A DNA stretch of 34,565 nucleotides, taken from NCBI GenBank assembly GCA_937891045.1, contig CALBEV010000031.1, forward strand, positions 1 to 34,565, written 5' to 3'. The stretch's first letter is position 1. Every line of letters starts with the position of its first letter. Below are positions 10,055 through 34,157 of the stretch, piece by piece. The DNA comes from an uncultured Burkholderiales bacterium (GTDB lineage: Bacteria > Pseudomonadota > Gammaproteobacteria > Burkholderiales > Burkholderiaceae). Both the position numbers and the translations under genes were made by a program. The notes below the pieces were generated by a model. The model was not told the DNA's origin, made no database searches, and worked only from the letters and a program-made list of their open reading frames with translations.

Positions 10055-11938
10055 ATGAGCACAGCAACTGAAAATAAGCACGTCTCGTCCTTGGCCGGAC
10101 TCACGCTCGGGGCCATCGGCGTGGTTTATGGGGATATCGGCACCAGTGTGCTGTATGCCATCAAAGAGGTGTTTGGCTCGGGCCATGTGGAATTCACACC
10201 AGACAACGTGATGGGGATTTTGTCCATTTTCTTTTGGACACTGACCTTCATCATTTCTATCAAGTACGTGACATTGGTCCTGCGGGCAGATAACAACGGC
10301 GAGGGCGGCTTGGTGGCCATGCTGGCCCTGGCCTCTTCTTCAGTCAGGGACAAGCCGCGGTTGCGCAATGTCTTGTTGGTGGTTGGGATCTTCGGCACTT
10401 GTTTGTTTTATGGCGATGGTGTCATCACTCCGGCCATCTCTGTCTTGTCCGCTGTCGAAGGCTTGGAAGTGGTGTCGCCCAATTTCAAGAAGGCGGTGAT
10501 TCCGCTGACCTTGTTCATCTTGCTTTGTTTGTTTGCAGTGCAAAAGCGTGGCACAGCGGGCATTGGCAAATTTTTTGGCCCGATCACCTTGGTCTGGTTT
10601 CTGACGATTGCGGTGCTGGGGGTCTATCACATCGCCAGCAACCCAGCCATTTTGTGGGCCATCAGTCCGCACTACGCTTTGCGGTTCATCTGGGAGCAAC
10701 CCGGCACCACGTTTTTGATTTTGGGCGCGGTGGTCTTGTGCGTCACCGGTGGTGAAGCCCTTTATGCCGACATGGGGCACTTTGGCAAAAGACCGATCCG
10801 CTTGGCCTGGTTCAGTGTGGTCATGCCCTGCTTGACCTTGAATTATTTTGGCCAAGGCGCCTTGCTGTTGACAGAGCCTGAGGCTGTCAAAAACCCGTTC
10901 TACAACATGGCCCCAGACTGGGCGCTGATCCCCTTGGTGATATTGGCCACCGCCGCCACCGTCATTGCGTCCCAAGCGCTGATCACCGGCGCGTTCAGCG
11001 TGACCAAACAAGTCATTCAACTGGGCTTTTTGCCACGACTGCAAATTCACCACACCAGCGAAAGAGACACCGGTCAGATTTACATGCCTTTTGTCAACTG
11101 GGGCTTGTTTGTTGTCATCGTGCTGGCCGTGGTCATGTTCAAGACCTCCAGCAACCTGGCAGCGGCTTACGGCATTGCCGTGTGCACCGACATGTTGATC
11201 ACCACGATCTTGACCTTTTTTGTACTCCGTTATGCATGGAAATACCCGATGTGGCTGTGCATCAGCACAACCAGCATCTTCTTCTTGGTGGACTTGGCAT
11301 TTTGGAGCTCCAACTTGCTGAAAATTGCCGACGGCGGCTGGTTTCCGCTGTTCATTGGCGGCATGATTTTGATCTTGATGTTGACTTGGCGTGATGGACG
11401 CCAATTGCTTCACCACAAAACCCGTGACGAAGCCATGGACTTGCGTTCCTTCTTGGATGCCTTGTTCATTGGCCCACCTACACGGGTAGAAGGCACGGCG
11501 GTCTTTTTGACAACAGAAAACGACATCGTGCCCAATGCCATGTTGCACAACTTGAAGCACAACAAGGTCTTGCACGCGCAAAACCTGTTTGTCACGGTGC
11601 GCAGCCACGAAGTCCCTTGGATCGCCAAAGATGAACGTGTAGAGCTGACCGATCTTGGCCATGATTGCTGGCAGGTGAAAATCCACTACGGCTTCAAAGA
11701 CGATCCGGATGTGCCTTTCGCACTGAGCTTGTTGCGGGACAAACTGGGCAATATCAATGGCATGAGCACCAGTTATTTCTTGTCGCGCGACAGCATCGTG
11801 CCCACCGTGCACGGTGGCATGGCGCAGTGGCGAGAAAAACTGTTTGCCCAGATGTACCTGAACGCCAGCGCCGCTGCCGACTTTTTGAATCTGCCCAGCA
11901 ACTCGGTGGTGGAGATGGGCAGCAAGATCGAAATTTAA
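10055..11938 (+). CDS. kup: Low-affinity potassium transporter Kup
   Basis: Kup (TrkD) imports K+ with protons across the inner membrane. The 627-residue protein matches the family length (622 in E. coli). It starts with [26 protein letters not shown] (first helix, about 9-34), the most conserved Kup motif, followed by about a dozen hydrophobic segments up to about residue 440, then a soluble C-terminal domain. Other typical stretches are [33 protein letters not shown] and [14 protein letters not shown]. It stands between gshA and gshB in the same direction with an 82-base gap upstream. A GC-rich hairpin follows its stop. No signs of transfer. Confidence 0.96.
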
Positions 11939-11946
11939 GCCTGAGC

Positions 11947-11964
11947 CGCCCGCCCCGGGCGTTT
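11947..11964 (+). terminator. Candidate weak intrinsic terminator after kup
   Basis: CGCCCG, loop CCC, CGGGCG is a perfect 6-bp GC stem followed by only TTT, nine bases after the kup stop. The T tract is short, so termination may be partial; gshB starts 20 bases further on. Confidence 0.35.
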
Positions 11965-11984
11965 GGGCTGTTAACCTCTCGGGT

Positions 11985-12938
11985 ATGAAGCTTTTGTTTG
12001 TCGCCGATCCGCTGAGCACCTTCAACATCCAGAAGGACAGCACTTTCACCATGATGCGTGAGGCACAGGTTCGGGGACATGAGCTGTGGTGCTGTGACAC
12101 AAAGGACTTGCATTGGCAAACTGGGCAGCCTGTCAGCGCCCAGATGCACCAAGTGCATTTGACCAGGGACCCCGCCGCTTGGTTCACCATTCAACAAACC
12201 TGCGTGCAGCCTTTGCACAGCATGGGCGCGGTGGTCATGCGCAAAGACCCGCCATTTGACAACGAATATTTCTACGCCACCCACTTGCTCAGCCAAGCTG
12301 AAAAAGAAGGCGCTCAGGTGTTCAACCAACCGGCCGCATTGCGCGAACATCCGGAAAAACTCGCTCTCATGGAATTCGCCGAATTTGCCAGCCCGACCTT
12401 GGTGACGCGCCAAGCCCAAGCCATTCGTGATTTTCACGCGCTGCACCAAGACATCATCTTGAAGCCTCTGGATGGCATGGGCGGCATGGGCATCTTCCGC
12501 GTCAAAGCAGATGGCTTGAATCTCGGGGGCATCATCGAAACCCTGAACCGCGACGGCGCCCAAACCGTCATGGTGCAAAAGTTCATTCCCGCCATCGCGC
12601 AAGGGGACAAGCGTGTCCTGGTGATTGGTGGCCAACCGGTGCCTTTTGCCTTGGCCCGTATTCCGCAAGGCAACGAGGTGCGCGGCAATTTGGCGGCCGG
12701 TGGCAAAGGCGTGGCACAAGCCCTCACCGAGCGTGACTGGCAGATTGCCAATGCATTGGGTCCGCGGTTGGCTGCCCGAGGCTTGTTGTTGGTGGGCTTG
12801 GACATCATTGGCGACTGTTTGACCGAGGTGAATGTCACCAGCCCCACCTGTTTTCGTGAAATCACCGATCAAACCGGTTTTGATGTGCCTGCCATGTTCA
12901 TGGATGCACTCACCCATCAAGTACACAGGCCTCAATGA
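11985..12938 (+). CDS. gshB: Glutathione synthetase GshB
   Basis: ATP-grasp enzyme that adds glycine to gamma-glutamylcysteine to complete glutathione. The 317 residues match E. coli GshB (316). Sequence landmarks are the N-terminal FVADPLSTFNIQKDSTF, the segment VVMRKDPPFDNEYFYATHLL, the ATP-binding lysine in ILKPLDGMGGMGIFRV (Lys160, same number as in E. coli), VQKFIPAI, GDKRVLVI, and the metal/substrate region LTEVNVTSPTCFREI near the C-terminus. The start ATG follows 46 bases after kup. The next gene, a photolyase-like protein, begins 13 bases after the stop, so the two are probably co-transcribed. Confidence 0.97.
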   Translation: MKLLFVADPLSTFNIQKDSTFTMMREAQVRGHELWCCDTKDLHWQTGQPVSAQMHQVHLTRDPAAWFTIQQTCVQPLHSMGAVVMRKDPPFDNEYFYATHLLSQAEKEGAQVFNQPAALREHPEKLALMEFAEFASPTLVTRQAQAIRDFHALHQDIILKPLDGMGGMGIFRVKADGLNLGGIIETLNRDGAQTVMVQKFIPAIAQGDKRVLVIGGQPVPFALARIPQGNEVRGNLAAGGKGVAQALTERDWQIANALGPRLAARGLLLVGLDIIGDCLTEVNVTSPTCFREITDQTGFDVPAMFMDALTHQVHRPQ

Positions 12939-12951
12939 GCATTGATGCCTT

Positions 12952-14160
12952 ATGAAGCTGTTCATTGAACAAGCCTTGTTTGAGCCCTATGCCCATGCGG
13001 CACAGGCGCGATTGGCGGCCATTCGGCCGTTTGAATATGCACAAACTCGCAACCACATCGACGGTGCGGTCAGCATGTTGTCACCCTACCTCACCCACGG
13101 CTTGTTGACCGTGCCCGATGTGGCCGACCATGTTTACAAGGTGCACCGCATGGGGGTGCAGCACAAGTTCGTTTTCGAGTTGGCGTGGCGTGAGTATTTC
13201 CAACATGTGCATGAGTTGGTGGGTGATCAAGTGCTTTCCAACTTCCATGAAGGCGTGCTGCCCGATGACGCCTACAGCCAGAAACTGCCCGACGACGTGC
13301 GCTGTGGCGCCACGGGTGTGCCCGCCATCGACCAAGCCATCCGCCAGCTGTATTTCAACGGCTATGTGCATAACCATGCACGCTTGTGGTTGGCCAGTTA
13401 TTTGGTGCACCTGCGCAAGGTTCATTGGCGTGTTGGCGCCGAATGGATGTACAGCCATTTGTTGGATGGCGACATCGCCAGCAACCACCTGAGTTGGCAA
13501 TGGGTAGCTGGCACAAGCAGCAGCAAGCCTTACTTGTTCAATGCCGCCAATGTGGCGCTTCATGCCCCAGAGCTTTGGCATAGTCAGAACACGGTGATTG
13601 ACAAGCCGATGGACATCATCGAGATGATTGCCCAAAGCCAAGCGACCTTCACCCAAGCCATGCACCAGCATGCGCATGTAGACGAACCCGATGTGTTGCA
13701 AATGCCGCCGGCCGAAGCCGATTTGGTGGCCAGTGGCTTGGCTGCCGATAAATTGGTGGGCAAAGAGGTGTGGTGGATTCACCCGTGGTCGCTCACAAAC
13801 CAAGCCCCCTCGGGTATGCCGCCTGATGCCATGCGGGTGGCTGCGTGTTGGCTCGAGTGGACCCAAACGCGACCATGGAGCCGAGGGCGTTGGTCGTTTG
13901 TGGCCAAGGGCATGCACCAGGTGGCCTCGCACTGCTGGTTTGAGGACGCCGCACGACTGACCGAGGTGTTTGCCAAAGCCAAAGCGGTGCATGTGTGGGA
14001 CCACATGGCTTTGCCCCATTGGCCTGGCGTGAATTGGGTGCGCCACCCTGCACCACGCTTGTGGCCGCGCCAAACCGAGCGCAGCCCCTCGTTTTCCCAT
14101 TGGTGGACCAAGGTGACGCGCTACAAACAATCCATACCGCAGTTGCTGCGCAACCGATAA
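12952..14160 (+). CDS. Photolyase/cryptochrome-like FAD-binding protein with rearranged domain order
   Basis: The first 215 residues match the FAD-binding catalytic domain of DNA photolyases: SMLSPYLTHGLL (41-52), FELAWREYFQHV (75-86), TGVPAIDQAIRQLYFNGYVHNHARLWLASYL (121-151), HWRVGAEW (158-165) and DGDIASNHLSWQWVAG (172-187, including the Asn178 expected to face flavin N5 and the WQW motif). The usual N-terminal alpha/beta antenna domain is absent: the protein starts directly at the FAD domain. After a linker, residues about 270-392 look like an antenna domain instead: EVWWIHPWSL resembles the VWFRRDLR first strand, then RVAACWLEW, SRGRWSFV, KAVHVWDH and a final FSHWWTKV like the FxPFxxxW end of antenna domains. 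HNR is HNH here. Co-transcription with gshB is likely. Substrate (CPD, 6-4 or other) cannot be told. Confidence 0.8.
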   Translation: MKLFIEQALFEPYAHAAQARLAAIRPFEYAQTRNHIDGAVSMLSPYLTHGLLTVPDVADHVYKVHRMGVQHKFVFELAWREYFQHVHELVGDQVLSNFHEGVLPDDAYSQKLPDDVRCGATGVPAIDQAIRQLYFNGYVHNHARLWLASYLVHLRKVHWRVGAEWMYSHLLDGDIASNHLSWQWVAGTSSSKPYLFNAANVALHAPELWHSQNTVIDKPMDIIEMIAQSQATFTQAMHQHAHVDEPDVLQMPPAEADLVASGLAADKLVGKEVWWIHPWSLTNQAPSGMPPDAMRVAACWLEWTQTRPWSRGRWSFVAKGMHQVASHCWFEDAARLTEVFAKAKAVHVWDHMALPHWPGVNWVRHPAPRLWPRQTERSPSFSHWWTKVTRYKQSIPQLLRNR

Positions 14161-32632: not shown

Positions 32633-33436
32633 GTGAGCGACATCCTGAACAAAATCATCCAAACCAAGCACGAGGAAGTGGCGCAGCGTTTGCGCAAAAC
32701 CTCTTTGGCTGACATGCGCTCGGATGCCGAAAGCCGCGTGCTGACCCGCGACTTTGAAGGCGCCTTGCGTACCAAAATCGCCGCTGGCCAAGCCGCCGTC
32801 ATCGCCGAGGTGAAAAAAGCCAGTCCATCCAAGGGCCTGCTGCGCGAAGACTTCATTCCGGCCGACATTGCGCAAAGCTATGCCTTTGGCGACGGCCACA
32901 CCAGCGCTGCCTGCTTGTCGGTGCTCACCGACCAACAGTATTTCCAAGGCAGCACCGATTACCTCAAGCAAGCCCGCGCTTCTTGCGACCTGCCTGTGTT
33001 GCGCAAAGACTTCATGGTCGATGTGTTTCAAATTTACGAGTCTCGCGCCATGGGCGCTGACTGCATCTTGTTGATCGCTGCTTGCTTGAACGACGCGCAA
33101 ATGGCCGATTTCGAAGCCGTGGCCCAGGCTCTGGGCATGGCCGTGTTGGTGGAGGTTCACGATGCCCAGGAGCTTGAACGCGCTTTGAAATTGAAAACCC
33201 CGCTTTTGGGGGTGAACAACCGAAATCTGCGCACCTTTGAAGTGTCTTTGGACACCACCTTGTCGCTCATGGTCGAACTGCCCTCCGAAAAATTGCTGAT
33301 CACCGAAAGTGGCATCGCCACCCGCGAGGATGTGCTTCGTTTGCGTCAAGCGGGGGTGCATGCGTTTTTGGTCGGCGAGGCTTTCATGCGTGCCTCCGAA
33401 CCTGGCCAGGCGCTGGCAGAGCTGTTTGAAGTCTGA
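32633..33436 (+). CDS. trpC: Indole-3-glycerol phosphate synthase TrpC
   Basis: TIM-barrel enzyme that closes the indole ring from carboxyphenylamino-deoxyribulose phosphate. The 267-residue protein has [13 protein letters not shown] at the start, the catalytic [10 protein letters not shown] from residue 59, [55 protein letters not shown] and [28 protein letters not shown]. It begins with GTG. It is monofunctional (no TrpF fusion). trpF, trpB and trpA are not in the window, consistent with the split trp genes usual in betaproteobacteria. Confidence 0.97.
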
Positions 33437-34157
33437 TGCTTTTTTAAGCAGTGCCAAGCCTGCAGATTGGCTTGTGGACCCCTCTTGGCAAGCGCTGGTG
33501 GAAGGGTTTTGGCAAACCCCAGATGGGCACCAACTTTCATTGTTTTTAAATGAAAGACAGAAAGCAGGCGCTCACATTTTTCCGCATCAGCCATTGCGCG
33601 CCTTGCAACTGACCCCCTTGCCTGAAGTGCGGGTGGTTATCTTGGGTCAGGATCCTTATCACGGTCTGGGGCAGGCGGAAGGCTTGGCTTTTTCGGTGCA
33701 ACCCGGCGTGCAGACGCCGCCCTCTTTGCGCAATATCTTCAAGGAAATGCGGGACGACTTGGGCTTACAGCCACCCATGAGCGGCTCCTTGCAGGCCTGG
33801 GCGCAGCGCGGCGTTTTGCTGCTCAACACCTGTTTGACGGTGGAGGAGGGGCAGGCGGGCTCGCACGCCAAACGCGGCTGGGAAGCCTTGACCGATGCCC
33901 TCATCCAGGCGGTGGCGGCTCGTCCGCAGGCCTGTGTTTTCATGCTGTGGGGGGCGCATGCCCAGACCAAGGCGCCACTCATTGCTCAAGCCAGTGCTGC
34001 ACATGCCGCGCCCCGTCTGCTGTTGCAGGCCAATCACCCGTCACCGCTATCAGCCTTGCGTGGTCCGACGCCCTTCATGGGCTGTCGCCACTTCTCTCAA
34101 GCTCGGAATTGGCTTGAATCGCAAAACCTGCCGCTGGATTGGTCGCTAGAGGCTTGA
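33426..34157 (+). CDS. ung: Uracil-DNA glycosylase
   Basis: Removes uracil from DNA to start base-excision repair. Family 1 motifs are clear: the water-activating loop LGQDPYHG with Asp76 (numbering from the chosen start), [29 protein letters not shown], and the DNA-intercalating loop HPSPLSA with His204. The start is uncertain. No ATG is available between the trpC stop and the conserved region; a TTG at 33426, overlapping the end of trpC by 11 bases, gives 243 residues, and a GTG at 33474 gives 227 (229 in E. coli). The frame is open upstream inside trpC to an ATG at 33309, which is not family-like. Overlap suggests co-transcription with trpC. Confidence 0.93.

Follow-up and report, generated by a model that had tools for sequence, protein, structure and literature searches.

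A stretch of 34,565 nucleotides from an uncultured Burkholderiales bacterium (GenBank assembly GCA_937891045.1, contig CALBEV010000031.1; the whole stretch is here called the window) contains an open reading frame (ORF), 12952..14160 on the forward strand, whose product is probably a light-dependent cyclobutane pyrimidine dimer (CPD) photolyase with its domains in reversed order, the flavin adenine dinucleotide (FAD) catalytic domain coming first and a shortened antenna-type domain last. The arrangement itself is not new, being that of the already published NewPHL/SPL and Phr4/5/6 proteins, and the family of the window protein looks like a third reversed lineage, from Burkholderiales, lacking iron-sulfur (Fe-S) cysteines and with a shortened antenna domain. 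An original prediction made from the letters of the DNA had placed the gene at exactly these coordinates and had proposed the swap; its residue count of about 392 was short of the 402 amino acids, from an ATG start, of the translated ORF. The identification draws on a domain scan, homologues, an alignment and a structure model, and features given below by coordinates lie on the forward strand unless stated otherwise.

Predicted domain order and catalytic residues

A Pfam-A scan of the window protein (E<=10) finds a single domain, FAD_binding_7 (residues 73-201, E 2e-25), the catalytic domain that defines the photolyase/cryptochrome superfamily, with nothing N-terminal of it and, at that threshold, no match to PF00875. 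Since a protein database search gave 5348 homologues at E<=0.001 among 7998 scored candidates, and a 53-row alignment has invariant residues in both halves, the protein belongs to a real protein family. Among the best 120 of the 5348, on which the details of length and domains rest, lengths are 286-446 amino acids, the precomputed domain column holds PF03441 alone, PF00875, the mark of the normal antenna that would have spoken against the swap, is listed there for 0/120, and the names at source are just 'FAD-binding domain-containing protein' or 'deoxyribodipyrimidine photolyase'. Opposite kup, gshB and the photolyase gene, the minus strand has long open frames (10340-12190, 11754-12965 and 13081-14130), most likely by-products of codon bias.

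The FAD catalytic domain occupies 12979..13644 (about residues 10-231), and in the structure model the FAD fold aligns from residue 3 onward. The motifs by which the original prediction had recognised it are all present: SMLSPYLTHG (41-50), WREYF (79-83), GVPAIDQAIRQL and WQW (182-184). In the alignment with E. coli photolyase (1dnp), E76, W79 and R80, within the conserved segment E76 to E81 (13177..13194), correspond to E274, W277 and R278; N141, within HNHARLW (residues 140-146, 13369..13389), corresponds to N341; and W182 and W184 of WQW (13495..13503) correspond to W382 and W384. The four E. coli residues that contact the CPD (E274, W277, N341 and W384) are thus all matched (E76, W79, N141 and W184), and residues contacting FAD or CPD in the E. 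coli enzyme, where compared, are retained in the window protein. Across the set used for the trees the compared CPD-contact residues are invariant, as is N178, which sits at the flavin N5 position; among the 81 proteins of the related loci plus the window, E76 is replaced by Q in one. The family has no counterpart to the third Trp in the class I electron chain, and the observation that the usual HNR reads HNH holds throughout it, H142 being present in 81/81. The window protein has three Cys, at 118, 299 and 328, and the Fe-S cysteine motif CxxC...CP occurs in 0/81 loci-plus-window proteins and 0/120 of the listed homologues.

The C-terminal domain (residues 265-402, 13744..14157) is predicted to be an antenna-type Rossmann domain, on the basis of the model (predicted local distance difference test score, pLDDT, 90), the VIA alignments and hhalign. 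The motifs that had suggested an antenna (EVWWIHPWSL, RVAACWLEW, SRGRWSFV, KAVHVWDH and FSHWWTKV, the last at 381-388) are all found. Conserved HPW (277-279, 13780..13788) stands right after the first strand, and hhalign places FSHWW (381-385, 14092..14106) opposite the segment that closes Phr6-type antenna domains. Most constant among the residues counted in the domain are W279, W309, R313 and W314 (81/81 each), followed by H277 (80/81) and P278 (79/81). The likeness to antennae is bridged rather than direct: the window C-terminal domain matches Phr6-type (E 8e-6) and Burkholderiales Phr5-type (E 9e-8) C-terminal domains, whose own matches to class I antennae have E 9e-11 and 4e-7, respectively, with no significant direct profile match of the window domain to class I antennae, FeS-BCP antennae or NewPHL-like C-termini. 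L086 and L115 (class I antenna alignment), and rows with less than 60% of the cut domain, were left out of this comparison. In VIA, photolyases and cryptochromes alone among 50 rows align beyond residue 106. Foldseek on the C-terminal domain gave a best E of 0.05, to unrelated proteins, and PF00875 (E<=10) matched neither the window's own domain nor the Phr5/Phr6-type proteins of loci L123-L126. Structure, profile bridging and Pfam on a related family support the swap, and the fold check that had been proposed returned an antenna-like rather than an unrelated predicted C-terminal fold; the domain order and the predicted fold of both halves are shown by computation.

Whether this domain still gathers light is another matter. 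As cut, it has 138 residues, fewer than the 166 of the class I antenna cut. The first helix of a class I antenna sits after the first strand; the model has no helix between the first strand (272-276) and the second (294-300), so that the antenna pigment may be absent and antenna function is doubtful.

Relation to published reversed photolyases

PMC9426592 describes reversed photolyases in Synechococcus and Cyanobium, both as a pair, Phr4 and Phr5, and as the fusion Phr6, with four Fe-S cysteines in Phr4/6. It also describes Phr7, in which a 'Z-domain' comes after the FAD domain and which, according to that paper, acts in two other bacteria on single-stranded DNA. NewPHL/SPL, as in Dinoroseobacter shibae, is described in part of PMC13274461 as having inverted topology and repairing CPDs in single-stranded DNA, and PMC9498864 notes that SPL have been considered as the form from which all photolyases and cryptochromes may have arisen. 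With Phr4/5/6 the window family shares the order of domains, C-terminal domains that are homologous by profile and the signature H-N-H-x-R-(M/L)-W, but it lacks their four Fe-S cysteines and has a shorter antenna domain. Class I CPD photolyases such as those of E. coli (PhrB) and Anacystis carry the antenna N-terminally, unlike the window protein, and all 14 class I type rows have R and V/I at the positions of H142 and W146. The best NCBIfam match is to DASH cryptochrome, but at 101.9 bits it is far below the TIGR02765 cut-off of 317.05, and DASH proteins have the normal order. From FeS-BCP, the Fe-S bacterial (6-4) photolyase, the window protein differs in having no match to PF04244 (E<=10), and in having N141 where 6/6 FeS-BCP rows have the catalytic His. 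Coverage by the original NewPHL paper aside, the titles and abstract beginnings in a literature search mention no Burkholderiales Fe-S-free reversed family with a shortened antenna.

In the FAD-domain tree, 48 reversed rows (22 window family, 18 Phr6-like, 8 NewPHL-like) separate from 15 normal ones (14 class I type, 1 DASH) with support 100/99, the bootstrap not being fully settled; the split reaches 100/100 once DASH is dropped and five Phr4/6 genes from Burkholderiales are included. NewPHL-like rows join Phr6-like ones within the reversed group (97/98, and 96/99 with the added genes); the window family stands apart from both, yet its rows do not come out as a single clade (2 changes). 'NewPHL-like' here denotes alphaproteobacterial relatives of the L082 plasmid gene, whose NewPHL identity is presumed from order, length and taxon. 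L084 (plasmid match, short open frame) is absent from all trees; the second and third also lack L083 (long branch), FeS-BCP and the divergent cluster-5 rows (very long branches), and a first quick tree that included FeS-BCP and cluster-5 rows drew warnings of long branches, so that no conclusion here is based on it. Independently of the trees the groups are separated by the signature, of which H142 is found in 22/22 window, 17/18 Phr6-like and 9/9 NewPHL-like rows and W146 in 22/22, 17/18 and 8/9, with neither in any of the 14 class I type rows. CxxC...CP is present in 93/120 Phr6-like and 0/120 NewPHL-like proteins. The best explanation is that the window family, Phr4/5/6 and NewPHL all descend from one ancestor that was already reversed; because the trees are unrooted, they do not give the direction of the change in domain order.

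Two side observations attach to these relatives. The NewPHL-like genes on plasmids of Peteryoungia and Asticcacaulis (L082, L083) share their stretch with a gene for a UbiB-type kinase. The Phr6-like protein P0276 continues into a C-terminal uracil-DNA glycosylase domain (PF03167 at 524-670), a double DNA-repair fusion for which P0278-P0280 are likewise listed in the precomputed domain column; the window has a separate gene of the uracil-DNA glycosylase superfamily at 33309-34157.

Split and fused versions occur in the same bacterial order. In a sample of 200 genomes from the order of genome G008, the A1 profile (E<=1e-40) matched 28, an upper bound for the window family since 6/28 cover the FAD part only, five of these (L122-L126) being split or fused Phr4/5/6-type genes and the sixth, L127, a window-family member. 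In L122-L125 an FAD gene of 256-259 amino acids is followed directly by a separate ORF of 133-161 amino acids with antenna features (that of L123 ends in LTRFTPYWKAIE), and L126 is a fused version of 409 amino acids, together the arrangement of Phr4, Phr5 and Phr6 in Synechococcus and Cyanobium as given in the excerpts of PMC9426592. Fe-S cysteines are present in 3/4 split FAD genes (not L122). A gene that by eye looks like the last part of an Fe-S (6-4)-type photolyase lies upstream of these pairs; it adjoins them in L123-L125 and is one ORF away in L122. Another photolyase-like gene is downstream of the pair in L123 and L125. In L127 the FAD and antenna parts are in different overlapping frames, so that the gene is either broken or was misread in sequencing.

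Gene neighbours and hosts

In the window, gshB (11985..12938) ends 13 base pairs upstream of the photolyase gene on the same strand, a simple scan of the gap finds no promoter-like or terminator-like site, and a malate synthase G gene lies convergently downstream. Co-transcription, as originally suggested, is possible in this lineage. It does not extend to a general association: in the best 80 of 592 confirmed loci from a genome scan (76/81 sequences, window included, reach at least 1.7 kb upstream; neighbours were counted by tblastn with one representative each, typed by Pfam), gshB is directly upstream in just five (L001-L004, L009), so the distinct redox role that had been tied to it is rejected as a general reading. 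An Fe-S (6-4)-type photolyase gene (PF04244) immediately precedes the family's gene in the same orientation in 43/80 loci and is present anywhere in the stretch in 46/80; other neighbours are a MerR-type regulator (25), a second, divergent photolyase-like gene (23), a DCC1-like protein (22) and an SDR protein (19). Partial texts of PMC9758184 and PMC5241685 describe MerR/LitR regulators of light-induced photolyase genes, and the Burkholderiales photolyase clusters may themselves be light-induced. The divergent gene, represented by L029:2699-4258 and present in 22 further loci among L001-L080, is often near the window-family gene; it encodes about 520 amino acids without WQW, has His at the N378 position in 8/8 rows and sits on a very long tree branch.

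Locus titles are mostly Burkholderiales or betaproteobacteria; a few metagenome-assembled genomes labelled Klebsiella, Planctomycetota, Eisenbacteria or Pseudoxanthomonas are possibly misbinned. In 30 whole genomes picked from the 80 loci, a PF00875 photolyase gene above cut-off is present in 30/30 and an FeS-BCP gene in 28/30, so the window-family protein is an additional repair enzyme beside its hosts' normal-order and (6-4)-type photolyases. DASH is above cut-off in 1/30, G008, with a TGA within the matched span. The idea that the family substitutes for DASH was tried and rejected: across the 200 genomes DASH is above cut-off in 13 and the A1 profile matches 28, with both in one (G008), and as Fisher p is 0.70 there is no mutual exclusion.

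Rival readings and proposed action

That the window protein is simply NewPHL/SPL as published is the most serious rival, though on balance unlikely. Order of domains, a length of about 400 amino acids, the absence of CxxC...CP, the retained CPD residues and HNHxR(M/L)W are common to the window family and the alphaproteobacterial NewPHL-like rows, the window family is not one resolved clade, and those rows are stand-ins for characterised NewPHL sequences. However, they join Phr6 on a branch apart from the window family, and the two C-terminal domains have no recognisable profile similarity. Much less probable still is that a photolyase core has gained an unrelated Rossmann/HUP domain as residues 265-402, with the antenna likeness due to convergence of fold, given the two-step profile bridge to class I antennae, the restriction of the longer VIA alignments to photolyases and cryptochromes, and the separate antenna ORFs directly after the FAD ORF in L122-L125.

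Between these two in likelihood, and itself improbable, is a cryptochrome-like light sensor, or a redox protein tied to glutathione through gshB, without DNA repair. The change of HNR to HNH, the missing third Trp, the closeness of gshB in the window and the MerR-type regulators, a type linked to light responses in the partial texts cited above, are compatible with it. Yet the CPD-contact residues and N178 are kept as described, gshB adjacency is rare, and HNH is equally a feature of the NewPHL-like rows (9/9), NewPHL being said in the excerpt of PMC13274461 to repair CPDs.

For a light-dependent CPD photolyase with reversed domains, bound FADH-, excited by blue or near-ultraviolet light, would pass an electron to the CPD, which would then be split. 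By analogy with NewPHL, typified by repair confined to CPDs in single-stranded DNA and by having no antenna pigment, the substrate might be a CPD in single-stranded or unpaired DNA. The C-terminal domain would pack on the catalytic domain and cover the FAD site. A more tentative combination, possible rather than probable, is that the family is a third, Fe-S-free class whose antenna has been worn down from light-harvesting to a structural cap, that it deals with CPDs, perhaps in single strands, as the partner of its (6-4)-type neighbour, and that W146 replaces the third Trp. Living Burkholderiales may still show steps of the route: separate genes for the FAD and antenna parts, an Fe-S enzyme in which the two are fused, and the fused Fe-S-free enzyme, often next to an Fe-S (6-4)-type photolyase.

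The analysis re-labels proteins so far named generically as FAD-binding or deoxyribodipyrimidine photolyase. Split, fused and reduced-antenna forms within one order provide a series in which to ask whether the antenna domain moved once and whether such a domain can lose light harvesting yet persist as a cap.
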